From NCBI RefSeq assembly GCF_026151205.1, contig NC_087073.1, positions 15,149,837 to 15,209,836 of the forward strand: 60,000 nucleotides of DNA, given 5' to 3'. A model generated the notes under the pieces. The model was given only the letters and a program-made list of their open reading frames with translations. It was not told where the DNA came from and ran no database searches. Below are positions 1,521 through 18,749 of the stretch, piece after piece; the stretch's first letter is position 1; each line of letters opens with the position of its first letter. Source of the stretch: Bolinopsis microptera (Eukaryota; Ctenophora; Tentaculata; Lobata; Bolinopsidae). The translations under genes were made by a program, and so were the position numbers.

Positions 1521-4500
1521 TCAAAATCCTTCATTTCCCACAAGACTAACCACATATTCGGAGTTCTGCTCGTATCTCTGTCCAGCTTTAGTGAGGTAGT
1601 TAGCAAGAAGCTCGGTCTGGTATCCTGGTCTGTGAGTGGGCAAGGTTATGTCCACGTGGGTAAACTCAGCTCTTATCTCCAGCTGTTTTGTCAGGATTGT
1701 CGTCTTGCAGACTATCAAATACCTGGAGAAGAGACGAAATTATTTTTTCGCTGCAGGATCAAAGGAATGTTGGATAGAAATGTGGCGAACCAACTAGTAC
1801 ACTTTCTGTAGAAAGCTCTTTATTTTGTCATATGACTTTTGAGAGCTCGCATGTAGAAAATCCTTATCATATTACCGATTGCATGTTTTCAGAACCCAAT
1901 ATAGTTTATTAAGTGAAGAAAATTAGAGGGTTGTAACGTAAATAAATTAAATAAATAAATCTATTTATAGAAATATACGCCAACTCCAGTAGCTAATTTA
2001 AAATAGCTAGCTACATAATATATAACATCATAATGGCTAATTGTTGTAAATCGTAAATCCCTAATCGCTAGACGAAACACACTATCCAAATTTAAAATGA
2101 TGATGTAACCATTACAATATCAAGTCATCAAATTCTTCACAAGCAAGCTGTTATCGTATAAACGTGATAACTAGGAATGAACTCGGAACATTCATTGTAT
2201 CGGTTTTATCGCAACTTCAACAATTCAATAGCACCTTTTAACATTTACTCGTTTTTCTTATTATCAATGAGACTGGTTTTTAAAAACCACGACCGGCTGC
2301 TGCCTATTAGGCACACATACATGGTTGTACATGTTGAGATTTATCTGACCAGTCGAGTACTGCGTTTCAGAATAATATGTAAGGTACATTATAAGCAAAA
2401 TTGTAGTTCAATCATCTTTGATTTTTTACATTATGCAGAGGGTCCTACAAGTTAAAGCTAACAAACTTTTTCCCACAACGTGGAATGATATTCCCATGTC
2501 AGTAAAAATTGCCATTAACCATGCCACCTGTCGTGTGAGCTTACACCTTACATACATAGGGATACATACTAAAGACAATAGTAACGCTACTCTTAAACAC
2601 GAAGTAGGATCCCTCAAACCACATTAATTATTTACTTTCTTATCATAAAATGGGGAGAACTCTCCCCTTGCTTACAGTACTTTAATTAGAACTTTTGGCG
2701 GCAAACCACACAGTTCCGGCAACTCGGCTTGGTGAACCATATACCACCATTAACAGCTCGGTGAACCGCATAGCACCAATACCATAAGCTCAGCTAGGTA
2801 GAAAAAGTTCCCTTGATAGTACTAAACTATCTAAAATATTTACTTGTGTTTCGGATGAGTTATTAAGAGAATAATTTATTTGTGATTGGCTGATCAGAAA
2901 TGATCTGCATATTTTTTCCCCTACTCTTGCGGAAGGCAAAAAGATCGTAGGGAATAAGTAATCGGGTTTGGATATATATGAGGTGGCCCGACGGTCCTGC
3001 GGTGACGACAAAAGTCTGTTGTGCTGCGTGCGACGCTAGCCACGTGTTAATTAATTACAGTGAAGTTCCTCCTTCGCAAAGTATTTTCCGCAATTTTCTG
3101 GATTCATTTATTGTTGATGCGCACGGCGCTACATTGGTCAAATAAATCGTCAATTTTTACCATGCGCGAATCCCACTCATTTATTAAAAACATAGTAACG
3201 CTTTGTTGCCCCTAGGGACGACATTTGGAAGGAAAAGTTATCTTAATACTGCCAAACTATCTAAACAATGCTTGGCCGATCAGAAATGATGCGCATATTT
3301 ATTTTTAATCGAAATCTTATATTGCGTAAATACGCAATAAGTTTTAGATTTTTCTTTTTCTTCTACTTCTTTAAAAATGTTTGCATTTATGATAGCACAT
3401 ATAATATTGTATGTGCTATCTTAAATGCAAATAAACAGTAGTAGAAAAATATGGTATAATTTCGGGGCCTGACGTCAATTGACCATCCTTTAATCTACAT
3501 ATATTAGCAAAATCTGATGGTGGGGAACCAACCAACTTCTTTGCAGGCAAATTCCCGGACATAATGCTGAGAAGCTTACCTTTAAGCTCAGAAGCCTACG
3601 CTCTATGCAGCTTAATAAATTAGAAAGGACAACTTTGGGACACAAGGAAAAGTTAAACCATCCATTCCAATTAATCTGTTATTTCATCAAAACGGGGAGA
3701 ACTCTCCCCTTGTTTGATAGCTTTAGTCATTGACATTTTCAAGCGACATCAGATTTGTATCTGATGTAATCTAGATTTCTGGCACTGGCAGCTGCAAGGA
3801 ATAAGTCCCATCGTACAGTGCTCAGAAATCAACCAGGAAGTGCAGTCCTGGACATGTATAAGGTGCAAAAGTCAACTATATAGTAGACACACTTCCATAA
3901 CTTTTGCTTTTGTTTGAATAGGGAAAAATGTTGAAAATCAAGAAACTGATCAATTGAAAAAATGAACCAACAAAGTAAAAACTGACTTGTTAAGAAGTTC
4001 TTCAACAGGTTGTGGTGAGTCAATATCGGGATCATACGCAAAGCGTACGGGGAGCGCAGCTAACATGCAGTCAACTAGGGGCACAAACGCATCTCCTTCT
4101 TCCATTGGCAACAGAGGACAGAAGTGCGAGCTGTCGTACGCGAGCTGTCGGAAATACAGGGTGTTACATTGGTCTCTGACGTGCAGAAGGTGGTGAATGA
4201 AGCATATCATCATAATGTTAAAAATAATGTTAGCAACAACGACCCCAGTGACGTTGAACTTAATTTTAAAAGTAACATAAGCTACATTTCAATTTTATGA
4301 ATTTAAAAAAATAAATATTTGCTATAATATCACAAATACTAACGATGAGAGGAGTTTTGAAGCTGAGTTCGGGATCCCTTTCGAGAGGCAGATAAACACC
4401 TCCAAAGTAGACTGGAGCCAGCAAATCCTGGTTATCTTGCGAGTATAGGTGACTGAAAAACAAGGTTTAGAGCGATAATCCTGGTTATCTTGCGAGTATA

Positions 4501-7500
4501 GGTGACTGAAGAACAAGGTTTAGAGCGATAATCCTGGTTATCTTGCGAGTATAGGTGACTGAAGAACAAGGTTTAGAGCGATAATCCTGGTTATCTTGCG
4601 AGTATAGGTGACTGAAGAACAAGGTTTAGAGCGATAATCCTGGTTATCTTGCGAGTATAGGTGACTGAAGAACAAGGTTTAGAGCGATAATCCTGGTTAT
4701 CTTGCGAGTATAGGTGACTGAAGAACAAGGTTTAGAGCGATAATCCTGGTTATCTTGCGAGTATAGGTGACTGAAAAACAAGGTTTAGAGCGATAATCCT
4801 GGTTATCTTGCGAGTATAGGTGACTGAAAAACAAGGTTTAGAGCGATAATCCTGGTTATCTTGCGAGTATAGGTGACTGAAGAACAAGGTTTAGAGCGAT
4901 AATCCTGGTTATCTTGCGAGTATAGGTGACTGAAAAACAAGGTTTAGAGCGATAATCCTAGTTATCTTGCGAGTATAGGTGACTGAAAAACAAGGTTTAG
5001 AGCGATAATCCTAGTTATCTTGCGAGTATAGGTGACTGAAAAACAAGGTTTAGAGCGATAATCCTGGTTATCTTGCGAGTATAGGTGACTGAAGAACAAG
5101 GTTTAGAGCGAGGTTTGTACATAGTCGGATATGTGATAGAAGGTATAAGTACTAAGTAGCGACTAAGACTTGATTAATGTCTTGTAAGAATGCATGCTTT
5201 TGAAGATTGTTGTCTATTTATATAATCGAGTATTTATATATTGTAAATTGGATTTGCATTGTATGTCCAACAACAGACATGACACACCCTTTTACTGATT
5301 TTGCGGTAATTTTAGACGGTACTTCGCAGAAGTAGCCACGTCATGATATGACGCTGTACAGGGTAATAACCACATTGTATTATAATTATACAAGATAATT
5401 ATGTAGGATAATTATTAATTATAATACAATATTTCAATTCATACACCATCATACAGCTACTACATGCTAATGTACGGTAAAAATGTGCATTACATCGTGG
5501 AATTATCGGCACACATACGTGGTGCTATGAAAAGTTGAAATTATGCATGAAAACAAAAGTGTTGTAATGCCGTGTTGTCACGCGTTTCACTGTACCAAGA
5601 ATCACCGTGTGTTAAATTGTATTAGTTTTTAAAGCTCGCGATTTTATTTGATTAAGTTGCGTACAATATAGTACGTGTACCAATACGTGTACAAATACGT
5701 GTAAAAATACGTGTACTAATACGTGTACAAATAGCTGGTGAGAAGGTTGGTGTATGTATAATAGCAAGGCGCTAAACTCAGCTGTGCGATATACCCAGGT
5801 ACTACCTACACAATATACCCGGGTACTACCTACACAGCACACTGAAGGTGTGAGAAATCACACTATTCAGCTGCTTTTAACCAGCAGCCCTGACCACACA
5901 CATTTAAACAGTTGTACTAGAACCTGTTTTTTAAATTAGCATCACGTATTTATTTGTCATTAAAATGTACAGTTTATTCGATTATTATAATAATAACAAG
6001 CTGGATTTAGCGTTGTCAGGTTGAAATTATAGAGTTTTATTGATACATTTTAGCGGTACAAATTATGGAGAATCTTAAATTGGGAATAGCGTTAAAGCGG
6101 TCTGAGTGTTCGATTTAGCATTAAACTGTAAATATTTACAACCCCACGTAGATTATCGTTATAATACTTTGGTTTAAGTTAATCTTATAACATCAAACTA
6201 AGTGGACGTTTCCTCAGTCCTCACATTGCCCACTTGCCAGTGAGGCTAACGTTGTAATAATGTAACATATACCGACTTATACTCTATCCAAATACTGGCA
6301 GTTCTACAAACACCCAATATAACGGCAGCTTTTGTTATAACAGTAACAAGTAAAGGCGGTTACCTAATGATCATTGTAGACTGCACTCTGGCGCAGGGTT
6401 AAGATTAATTACAACAAGTAAATTCAGAGAGAAAGAGGGGAAGGTTAAACTTGAAAAGTCACATACGTTATATAAATGTCACAAGTACAGGGTGGCCCAG
6501 AAGTAACTACCCACACGCAACCCTTTAATAACTCACGTAATTCGTATCAGAATTGCTCAAAAATTTCAGGGAATATAGATATGGGTCTAACTTAGATTTC
6601 CTGAAAATTTCGTAAAATTTCATCGATTACAATTACAAAGGGTGTGGCATGGTAAGTATTTAGTGGACAGCAGAAATGTCAATGGTTGACCTTCAACCAT
6701 TTGATATACGGCAATACTGATTACTTTAACTACGGAATTTTATATAGTTAATCTGCTATATATGGAAATACATTCGGGGATTAAAAGCATCAATTATTTA
6801 TGAATTGTCGCTAAATTGTGTGCATGCTTTTCGTGTTGAGTTGTTGCAAGTGGCTGCAAAATAGAGAACTTTTCTGCAGTTACTTTTTCCACTTAGGTAA
6901 TCTTGATTCCAATCGATTTGATAAGGAATTATTTTGAAAGTTTTAAATGTGAAGCATCAATTCGAAATTGAATTATTGCTTTCTTGTTACTCCACAGCAC
7001 TCTTTCAAGTAACTGTTGTTAAAAGTTAAGATCCACTGATACCTCAGGACCAGGTAGCTGTTGTTTAAAATTATGATCTATATTCTCTGACTCTCTGCCA
7101 CGCAGCAATCCACACAATTGCAGAGAACCCTGGAGGGTACAACATAATATACCTGGAGCTGGGAGACCAGTGACCACCCTAATAAGCCCGCACATAATAC
7201 ACTGGGAACCCATCTTGTATTCAAACACATCATGTATAATGTCATTGGTTCTCCAATATCGCATTACAATTTGAACCCAGCTAATCAAATTACAGGAACA
7301 ACAGGACCTTCTGTAGAAGTGGGCATTAAGTAGGCTATACTAACAATATCATTCCTGGATAAGGCACAATGAGGGGGCCTGGAGGGGGTGGTGCTGTTTA
7401 ATAATACAGGAGAGAGGGTGCACTGGCACAATATGGATCATGTTGCAATGTTATTTTTAATATTATTACGAGCTAGGCCTTTGATCTATTTTCAGATTTA

Positions 7501-10500
7501 TAGATAACGGAGCATCGATTTACAGATTGCAATAACGTTATCCTTTCTTTTCTCATAATACTCCGATACTCTTAATACAATGAACTCTGATACTCTATAA
7601 TATTAACAGCTGATGGAGACCAGTACATTGGATTTATAAGGAGCTGTTAATCTTACTTTGATTTGTCTCATGTTATGTACTCTATAAACAGTACAATGCT
7701 AATCGTTATGAGAGATGGTAAACCAGATAAAGAACTAGGTGTGAAAATATTCATGAGACATTCAAAGTATTCATTCAATTTTTATTGAATAATGATATTC
7801 ACATAAAATATGTAACCCCGACGCGGCTGTTCCCCGTACACTGTACAGGGATTGTGTTAAGAGTTATACTACAATTCCATGCCAGGTGGGCAGTCTAATG
7901 AAGGGATATGTAAACGTAAGGTAAACGAACAAGTACACCACACAGCTGCTGGGTGGATTTATTGGGTTATTTGATTACAATTCTGTAACATCTGGAGGTG
8001 TTTTACTACTTTCCTGTCTCGCCAGGTAGTCAAAGATTCACATGGTGCTGGAAAGGTTTCAGGGTAATTACCAGAGATTTACACAGCAGTTAACAGCTGC
8101 AAGCGTGTGTTACAGTGTCGTCAGGACGGGAATTATATAAATTGGGAGAGATTTGCTCACTTTTAAGAGTGTTTATTGAATTCATACATGAAAGCAATTA
8201 GACGCGAAGATTAACTCATGAAATCCAAAAATCGTTTATAATCCTCGCAAGTTCAGGAATCATTACTGTCAGTGCAATCTACCTGCAACCATATGTGTAT
8301 GACCAGGTACATACGTGACGTATGTTGGATTTACGCCCATGCTGGATAGCAGTATTCAGCTTGTAACACTGAAGGTTGCTTTCATTTCATTAGGGAAAAT
8401 TCAAATGTGAGTCATTACTGCGGTTATACTCCAGACAATTTCTAAGGAATCAACTTTACTCATGGCATGGCATACCATAAATTCCATTAAAAATGTCCCA
8501 TTTCTTTGTCATGATTACTGACAAGAACAAGTAAAATATACTTGCACTGAAAGGTTTGAAATCATGCCACATTCGGACAAATATAAACATTGAACTAGAA
8601 CCATAAGGTTACATGTAGGCCTTTCATAATTTGTTCTGTCATATTATACCGTTCAAATAAATTGCATCAACATTTATTGGACGGATTACGGACAAATCGT
8701 CTTACCTCATAGCTATCACAATGATAGGGCGATAGAGCACATTAGCTAGAACATACACGTGGAAATCTTCCAGAGATCGGTACTTCACTTTGTTGAGACT
8801 GTCCATGCTGTAGTAATCATTATCACTTGATTCTTCCGGAGGTGTCGAACTGAAGAAATAGCCGAATATTATAAACACTTTGAACAATTTAAAAAATAAT
8901 ATCGGCTTGTGATCTATTGTATTGTGTACAGTACAATACTGGACAGGTCAGCTAGCTCGGGTACATTACAAAATTTAGATTATAAACGGAAGATATCTAA
9001 ATACAAACCAAAAGAAGATGGAAAGATATGGATCTCACCTGTCAGGAGGTTTTGAGAGGGGTGCAGGGGAGGACATCTTGAGAATATCTTCCCACTCACT
9101 CGACCACTGCTCATCAGTTAGTTCTATGTCAAAACCAAACTCTTTGAATCTCAGCTCCATCTCATGCTGCCACCTTCTTCGTAAACCTGTGGATAAAGCT
9201 CTAGTTATTTTCTGGATTTGATTTATAGAATTATCATCACGTTTGCGATGATTAAGAAATTACAAAGTCAAATACATATCAGTTTCTATCATTCCAGCAT
9301 AATTTAGATTGCATATAGGATGATGAACTGCCCAAGAACGTGTTGTATTGAATTTGTTGTATTGAATTTGTATTGAAATACAAGTCATGTGAGTGGACTT
9401 ACTTGGTAGTTGAGGTAGAAGTCTGTGAACTGATCCTCTGAGCGTGAGTTCCTTATCATGAACTCCATAAATTCCCAGACTAGCAGCATGCAGCAGGCAG
9501 TTTCCATCACCACGTGTTACAATTGGATATAACCGGTTCTTTGGCTCTTTTACTGCCCACCAATTGAGATGGTGAAAGTGCTCCAATCTTTCTAGCGTTT
9601 GTATATCCACCAGATCATCAAAAAAGAAACAAAGTATTTCAGCATCAAGTGATAAGAGGTTAGGCAAGTAGAAAAGGTCTTTTGGTACCACTATTTCCTC
9701 CACTTCATCTACAGGTGGAACGAGATGATTGAAGTCATTCTTTATTTTTTCGTGTAAAGATGTCAGCAAGGTTTCTGGACTGAAGAGAAAATAGTAATGT
9801 TAGGATTTCAAATCAAGAATCTTGACACTCAAAGATCACAATGAATGACACTCAAAGATCACAATGAACTCAAAGATCACAATGAAATTGAAAATTTAGT
9901 AGGAACAAAGAAATTGAAAATTTAGTAGGAACAAATAAATAAAACTTATTTATTGAAGGAGAAAGATTATGGCCTTTGTATCATTGGTTAACAAGTAGGC
10001 TATATCAAATCACCTGCAGAAGGAGAATCCTCTGTGATATCTGTTGAGACGCCTTTCATCTCCATTCAGGGGAGTGTCAGCTGATCCCCCAGCAGTGCTC
10101 GTCACGTGGGGAATGCGTGTCACCGGCTGTGGTAATGTGTAGCTCTGCAAAATATAATGCTGCTGAATAATTTGATCTAATATTGTTACATGTTCATGTA
10201 CATTGTACATTGTAGAAAGTGAACTATCTCTGTCGATGGAAACTATCTCTATTAAAGCAGGAGGAAGCTCAGAGTTTCTTCTTGTAGGCAATAACACGTG
10301 TTTTAAACAAGTTCATAGACTAATTACTAAATTAAGCAATTATCTACATATACTTAAAGTTACCTTTTCATCAGATATAGAATGAAATAGTTGCACTGCA
10401 TCATCCACAGAATTCTCAGTGATCTTCAACAAGACTTGGGCAACTGAGCTGTCAGCAGCTGTTTTTGAAACAAACTCGGCAACACACTCTGCATTATCAC

Positions 10501-18204: not shown

Positions 18205-18749
18205 AATTCTGGTCATAGATCATACAAGGCTGGTCGGTCGGAGGTCGGTCGGGCGCCGGTCGGCGGTAGGTGAACGCGGTCGGAGGTCGATCGGGCGCCG
18301 GTCGAGCGCTGGTTGGAGGTCGGTCGGTCGGAGGTCAGTCGGGCGCCGGTCAGAGGTGTGTTGTCCACCTCGCAGATGTCCATGCAGCCCCTCTTAATCC
18401 CTTCCAGCCGCAGTCCTCTCCGACACAGCCCATCATGTTTCCAACCGCCAACAGGACGATGAACACCAGTGCTGGTCAAGCCCTTACGCTTCATGCTCCA
18501 GGGACCAGGTCCAGCTCCACTATCCCGGCCAGCCGCCTACTCACGAAGCGATGTAGTGCAGAGTTCGATAGACTTGTACAATAAGATACGACTGACAGTA
18601 ATGGATCCTCCGACCGACCTCCGACCGGCGCTCGACCTGCGCCCGACCGGTGCCCGATCGACCTCCGACCAACCTCCGACTGGCGTTCACCTACCGGCGC
18701 CCGACCGACCTCCGACCAACCAGCCTTGTCTGATCTATGACCAAAATTC
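18205..18749. mobile_element. GC-rich foldback element around a unique core
   Basis: The left arm (about 18205-18355) and right arm (about 18604-18749) are inverted copies. They share the outer TTTGGTCATAGATCA (TTCTGGTCATAGATCA on the left), then CAAGGCTGGT and a body of repeated GGTCGG and GGGCGCCGGTC units. The enclosed 250 bp is not repetitive. The window is otherwise AT-rich, so the base composition stands out. No target-site duplication was identified, so mobility is inferred from structure alone. Confidence 0.6.

Follow-up and report, generated by a model that had tools for sequence, protein, structure and literature searches.

In a 60,000-nucleotide stretch of the genome of the comb jelly Bolinopsis microptera (NC_087073.1, positions 15,149,837 to 15,209,836; hereafter the window, whose own numbering is used below), an intron/exon boundary of an OTUD7-like gene on the minus strand lies within an array of 13 near-identical 53-bp units, each carrying a complete acceptor (3' splice site). 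Minisatellite repeats that cross intron/exon boundaries are called "mirages" in amphioxus. We consider the OTUD7 array likely to be a young minisatellite of this type, whose exon-proximal acceptor gives the working mRNA, and not a purpose-built regulator. The genome has many tandem repeats, and several other splice junctions in it carry such arrays.

Results

Structure of the OTUD7 array

Tandem Repeats Finder placed the array at 4424-5111 (period 53, 13.0 copies, 98% matches), and its score of 1320 was the highest of the 42 rows returned for the window. A preliminary description of this DNA had listed thirteen 53-bp units; both the count and the start at 4424 held, while the end lies at 5111 and not at 5110. 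Comparison of the units on the minus strand gave 13 CAG|TCACC sites (the bar marks the splice boundary) at a spacing of exactly 53 nt in 12/12 intervals, with the first exon base running from 5088 to 4452. Each unit consists of the last 23 nt of the intron, the first 29 nt of the exon and one extra A at the unit junction, which is present in neither flank. The unit reads ATCGCTCTAAACCTTGTT[C/T]TTCAG|TCACCTATACTCGCAAGATAAC[C/T]AGGATT, and all 13 units retained CTCTAAAC, the pyrimidine tract and the CAG. The hexamer CTAAAC, which by its consensus we take to be a putative branch point, sits 14 nt ahead of the boundary AG in 13/13 units, and from the second copy onward ATAACC in the preceding unit, 32 nt before the AG, is a further candidate. 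The acceptor module described earlier (CTAAAC, tract, CAG and exon opening) was complete in every unit.

The exon body continues from the last, exon-proximal copy only, as had also been noticed before. Its AG (4453..4454, minus strand) is the sole one of the 13 that keeps the OTUD7 frame. The 12 upstream acceptors (decoys; 4505..5090, minus strand), which we followed by site position and by translation through each acceptor, have their first exon-like base at 4505, 4558, 4611, 4664, 4717, 4770, 4823, 4876, 4929, 4982, 5035 and 5088, so that all 13 acceptors spread over 636 nt.

The units differ at two C/T sites, position 19 inside the tract and position 47, and otherwise only in that unit 1 begins with a base that belongs to the flank. 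The T at position 47 creates a TAG in units 2 and 3. Both T variants are common to units 2 and 3 (counted from the 5' side), while units 8 to 12 are identical, a pattern of the kind that local spread by slippage or unequal exchange would leave. The near-identity of the units fits the recent expansion suggested in the preliminary description.

We searched the genome (264.65 Mb, stretches reading N aside) with the 34-nt unit core, allowing up to 3 mismatches. All 13 matches fell in the OTUD7 array and the reversed-pattern control gave 0 matches; this genome search found no second haplotype, allele or paralogue of the array. Older, decayed copies of the unit were sought elsewhere in the intron, in the exons that follow and at the end of the gene, and no score exceeded the shuffles' maximum in any of the three stretches. 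The predicted RNA of the array region (787 nt) was less folded than 20/20 shuffles (z +4.67), which indicates that the decoys are not masked by predicted structure and ruled out acceptors hidden in this way. No stop-to-stop open reading frame (ORF) of at least 100 aa overlapped the array on either strand, so the array is not a long coding repeat.

The host gene and the consequence of each acceptor

Five minus-strand exons joined in frame around the array. The two earliest are 9779-9403, with the cysteine region GDGNCLLHAAS, and 9186-9039. The exon upstream of the array intron (8706..8849) ends in ATGAG|GTAAGA, and its last two bases form a split codon with the T of the next exon. The host intron calls for a small correction of the preliminary description, since it is long, with 4253 nt up to the last acceptor (4453..8705). 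The 109-nt exon at 4344..4452 begins inside the exon-proximal unit and has its donor, ATC|GTTAGT, at 4343. The downstream exon (3987..4144) carries the histidine region LAYDSSHF. The joined exons matched Pfam OTU (PF02338) with E 1.4e-13. In a comparison made against PDB chains only, their best match was OTUD7B (5lru; E 1.6e-53, 185 bits; best A20 chain 116, ZRANB1 79), and the alignment to 5lru, which also supports the individual exons, crosses the array junction with a single-residue gap. The host is thus OTUD7-like, and its sequence is that expected of a Cezanne-type deubiquitinase, with both the cysteine and the histidine regions present.

With the last acceptor (first base 4452) the frame was kept through the joined exons. 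In contrast, 12/12 decoys gave a premature stop, in line with the frameshift or truncation proposed earlier: 11 of these stops lie inside the lengthened exon, and the twelfth, from the decoy adjacent to the exon-proximal copy, lies in the next exon, which is then read out of frame. Whichever decoy is used, LAYDSSHF is either not reached or frameshifted. The next copy up would make an exon of 162 nt.

Three known classes of splice-site arrangement were considered for the array and rejected. By a crude count, the best GT within the units agrees with 4/9 consensus positions against 6/9 for the exon's own donor (a further GT within the exon, at 4399, also scores 6/9); with no good donor, the units are unlikely to be separate cassette exons. 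A recursive (zero-length exon) splice site was rejected for lack of AG|GT, as 13/13 sites read CAG|TCACC, and a NAGNAG tandem acceptor because the spacing is 53 nt and not 3 nt in 12/12 intervals.

A second intronic tandem array of the OTUD7 gene lies at 1242-1384, with a 20/40-bp unit and without exon bases. Two of its copies contain a pyrimidine tract and CAG (TTTTTGCTTCCAG and TTTTTGCTTTCAG), and it stands upstream of an exon starting near 1159.

Junction arrays in other genes

To see whether the OTUD7 array stands alone in this genome, we used matches to three gene families, which among the matches listed sit on contigs C1 to C13 (none on C4). The myosin head sample held 73 matches in 30 loci and the kinesin sample 109 matches in 30 loci; merged, these loci cover 159,538 bp and have 120/182 matches inside. 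Counting non-overlapping arrays with a period of at least 10 and a score of at least 80, we obtained 46 arrays in the myosin and kinesin loci, amounting to 5.5% of bases. The SNF2 sample held 40 matches in 26 loci (60,849 bp, 33 matches inside).

Five of the 46 myosin/kinesin arrays duplicated a junction together with exon bases, two at acceptors and three at donors. The two acceptor arrays are a myosin array of 72 bp in 3 copies, at an exon of ~34 nt (C11:11964837-11965059; locus L007, 2836-3058), and a kinesin array of 49 bp in 7 copies, 98% alike, at CCCAG|GTATTC (C2:6087272-6087615; L045). Among the donors, a myosin exon end with its donor, GGG|GTAAGTGA, is repeated in 31-bp units in 4 copies (C13:10329620-10329747; L016, 925-1052), a kinesin donor, ACAAG|GTAAGA, in 53-bp units in 2 copies (C5:9864532-9864638; L038), and a further kinesin donor, ATTGAGAG|GTATTT, in a degenerate array with 7 motif copies including the authentic one (C7:4102740-4102849; L041). 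The three kinesin arrays adjoin 3 of the 120 matched exons. The two myosin arrays stand at exons unmatched by the family model, which we read by eye from frame and myosin resemblance; screening for such exons covered only part of the remaining arrays, and base-by-base inspection left aside two array rows on kinesin C2 and C8 and one at C12:14836690. With the three samples pooled, 5/51 arrays duplicate a junction and 3/153 matched exons are affected. What these arrays share with that of OTUD7 is their position at a splice junction, their unit sequences being different.

Use of the outer copies would lead to a stop in the myosin C13 array and in all three kinesin arrays (on C2 for 6/6 decoys, assuming phase 0 at GTA TTC). 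In the myosin C11 array each extra 72-bp unit adds 24 codons without a stop.

Several arrays close to junctions were not counted as mirages. Exon bases were not clearly duplicated in two kinesin arrays on C12 (21 bp x29.6 and 32 bp x2) or in the myosin arrays on C2, C9, C3, C6 and C13. The same holds for a myosin array on C3 (48 bp x2) that starts one base inside the donor, and a kinesin array of GTGAGGTTAATTA (13 bp x21.7; C12:14833546-14833832, L054/L056) starts at the donor with the exon bases uncopied. The myosin donor at C3:11063595 is borderline, as G|GTTAGTAA recurs with at most one exon base copied.

Other repeats were seen along the way. A kinesin intron holds a 33 bp x 41.7 array (C12:14428371-14429773, L048) whose unit end, TTGGTAAGTG, is donor-like and occurs in ~41 repeats. 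Repeats of the CCGACCGACCTCCGACCGGCGC type occur at 18232-18721 of the window and at 610-712 of myosin locus L013 on the same contig, and probably form a dispersed repeat family. Many TTAGGG tracts are present in the genome. Searches for the marker families COX1, Glyco_hydro_6 and GFP gave no hit; control genomes were equally silent for Glyco_hydro_6 and GFP, so that these two negatives carry little weight.

A myosin exon with one and with three acceptors

The myosin gene with the C11 acceptor array has an inverted near-copy ~150 kb away (near C11:12113214, L088), 97% identical over 2.4 kb. The corresponding exon of this second copy has a single acceptor in place of three, and the aligned flanks are 90.5 to 95.8% identical. 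The single-acceptor copy has a 10-bp direct repeat, CAACTATTTC, with one occurrence in the intron and the second at the end of the exon, and the segment that is duplicated in the three-acceptor copy extends from one repeat to the other. The pair indicates that short direct repeats can mediate the gain (or loss) of a junction array. The second copy may be either a paralogue or an allele placed wrongly in the assembly. No direct repeat like CAACTATTTC was present at the joints of the OTUD7 array.

Discussion

Relation to amphioxus mirages

The sections of PMC3087553 that deal with mirages describe them as minisatellite tandem repeats across intron/exon boundaries, of unstable length and at either boundary, in globin genes and in Adh3 (citing Canestro et al. 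2002). PGBD5 is added to the mirage-bearing amphioxus genes, and troponin C (TnC) cited, in the corresponding section of PMC3902484. Like the mirages of these accounts, the OTUD7 array is a minisatellite-like tandem duplication that straddles the boundary between intron and exon, and each of its units takes in 29 exonic and 23 intronic nt. Units carry AG or GT signals, acceptor and donor versions occur in both genomes, and 53 bp falls within the 10-72 bp given for amphioxus Adh3. However, the OTUD7 array belongs to a comb jelly and to another gene, whereas the published cases are lancelet Adh3, the globins BflGb6 and BflGb9, TnC and PGBD5, and it consists of 13 near-identical complete acceptors where two BflGb6 haplotypes have 6 and 3 repeat units that are 81-100% alike. 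The Adh3 data and globin reverse transcription polymerase chain reaction (RT-PCR) in PMC3087553 suggest regular splicing despite mirages. A limited search of the open-access literature found no report of mirages outside lancelets. For Hormiphora, another comb jelly, the repeat section of PMC8527503 gives 14 Mb (13% of the genome) as marked by Tandem Repeats Finder.

Tandem duplication has also been linked to intron gain (Rogers; Zhuo et al. 2007; Gao and Lynch 2009, as cited in the same parts of PMC3087553). The likeness to the OTUD7 array lies in the start, a tandem duplication that copies a splice signal; the difference is that the OTUD7 units have no good donor and no new intron is evident.

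Origin of the array and choice of acceptor

When any junction is duplicated in tandem, a single copy would stay attached to the exon body and every other copy would come to lie on the side of the intron. The flanks and joints suggest that a 52-bp stretch across the OTUD7 boundary was duplicated in tandem with one extra nucleotide (A) at the joint, and that the duplication may then have grown to 13 copies by slippage or unequal exchange. In productive mRNA the 12 upstream acceptors would be read as intron, and transcripts spliced to decoys would be expected to carry a premature stop. The exon-proximal copy is the presumed working acceptor because no other copy is directly continuous with the exon body and its donor.

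How that copy would be favoured differs between donors and acceptors. In a human reporter library, the part of PMC6783452 on tandem sites reports that the first donor was mostly used when both sites were consensus, with no such preference among acceptors. In donor arrays the exon-side copy is transcribed first and a first-come choice suffices, which makes an acceptor array the harder case. In acceptor arrays the exon-side copy comes last, and a force from the exon side would be the simplest way to favour it. Exon definition acts across the exon to its donor and could apply to the 109-nt OTUD7 exon. The library resembles the OTUD7 array in that similar splice sites, 5' or 3', lie next to each other and compete for a single partner; it differs in that, as far as that part of PMC6783452 describes it, two sites were compared with a native acceptor spacing of 2-59 nt, against 13 natural acceptors over 636 nt in OTUD7.

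Several points weigh against our interpretation. We infer the use of the last acceptor from the gene structure, and the tandem acceptors made equal in the human library, which showed no order preference (PMC6783452, same part), give no reason for the 13th to win. On this evidence the earlier concern that upstream copies should compete with the real one stands. By exon length alone the copies just upstream would not be excluded, as a 162-nt exon would be near the median matched stretch of 183 nt. The SNF2 sample contained 5 arrays, none of them at the edge of its 33 matched exons. Compared with random placement, arrays over matched exon edges (the ends of family matches, some running over introns) were depleted and not enriched at all three cut-offs: 5 against 13.5 (95% range 6-22), 2 against 11.9 (5-20) and 2 against 8.3 (3-15). 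The test missed the kinesin C7 array, whose kept row begins 11 nt past the matched edge; with it included, the count at the middle cut-off is 3. No array lay inside a matched exon (0/46), which accounts for part of the edge deficit. The deficit hints that arrays at exon edges may carry a cost.

Other explanations

The array could instead be a dosage tuner, in which decoys take a sizeable share of splicing, this share and hence the OTUD7 level depend on array length, and selection may keep or vary the array. Thirteen acceptors of nearly the same sequence, a stop from every decoy, the equal standing of equalised acceptors in the human library and array RNA too poorly folded to hide the decoys all speak for it. 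However, amphioxus mirages seem not to disturb the mRNA by RT-PCR (PMC3087553, same sections), such arrays occur in unrelated genes, donors included, and the near-identity of the units requires no selection. Arrays at both donors and acceptors of unrelated genes point to undirected birth of minisatellites and not to an OTUD7 device. On balance we regard the dosage tuner as unlikely; the tuning role put forward in the preliminary description has so far gained no support from these comparisons.

Assemblers are known to have difficulty with tandem units that are nearly identical, and the array or its copy number could have been made or altered by the long-read assembler; according to the assembly details in PMC10232365, Bolinopsis microptera was assembled using wtdbg with PacBio data. 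Such an artefact appears very improbable given the patterned set of variants across the units, the 688-bp length of the array, short relative to long reads, and the arrays with different units at the junctions of other genes. That an array is present is more secure than its exact copy number of 13. We give still less weight to the idea that the array has some other role at the DNA or RNA level, such as that of a protein-binding or chromatin element on either strand, with its acceptor content incidental. Nothing specific favours it beyond the lack of a long coding repeat, and the factor common to the other arrays is the splice-junction position and not the unit sequence.

A young mirage-type minisatellite remains the explanation that we prefer. 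A wider proposal is much more tentative and, on present evidence, rather doubtful: splice-junction minisatellites might be a standing feature of the comb-jelly genome, at about 1 in 100 junctions in the genes sampled, and might be able to arise where short direct repeats flank a junction. They would then provide naturally occurring sets of one to 13 similar acceptors or donors, and the exon-proximal copy would be reliably chosen even from 13 acceptors, with acceptor choice set from the exon side and not from the branch point to the next AG.

Significance

The OTUD7 array is probably a mirage in very regular form, in a phylum for which our limited open-access search returned no mirage report. 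With a comb jelly as host, mirages would extend far outside lancelets and could recur in distant genomes. Thirteen acceptors of nearly equal local sequence provide a natural test of 3' splice site choice, in which strength is approximately constant and position varies. More generally, mirages may give rise to allelic series of splice sites, to added in-frame protein segments, of which the myosin C11 array is an example, and to new introns, an outcome already proposed for amphioxus.

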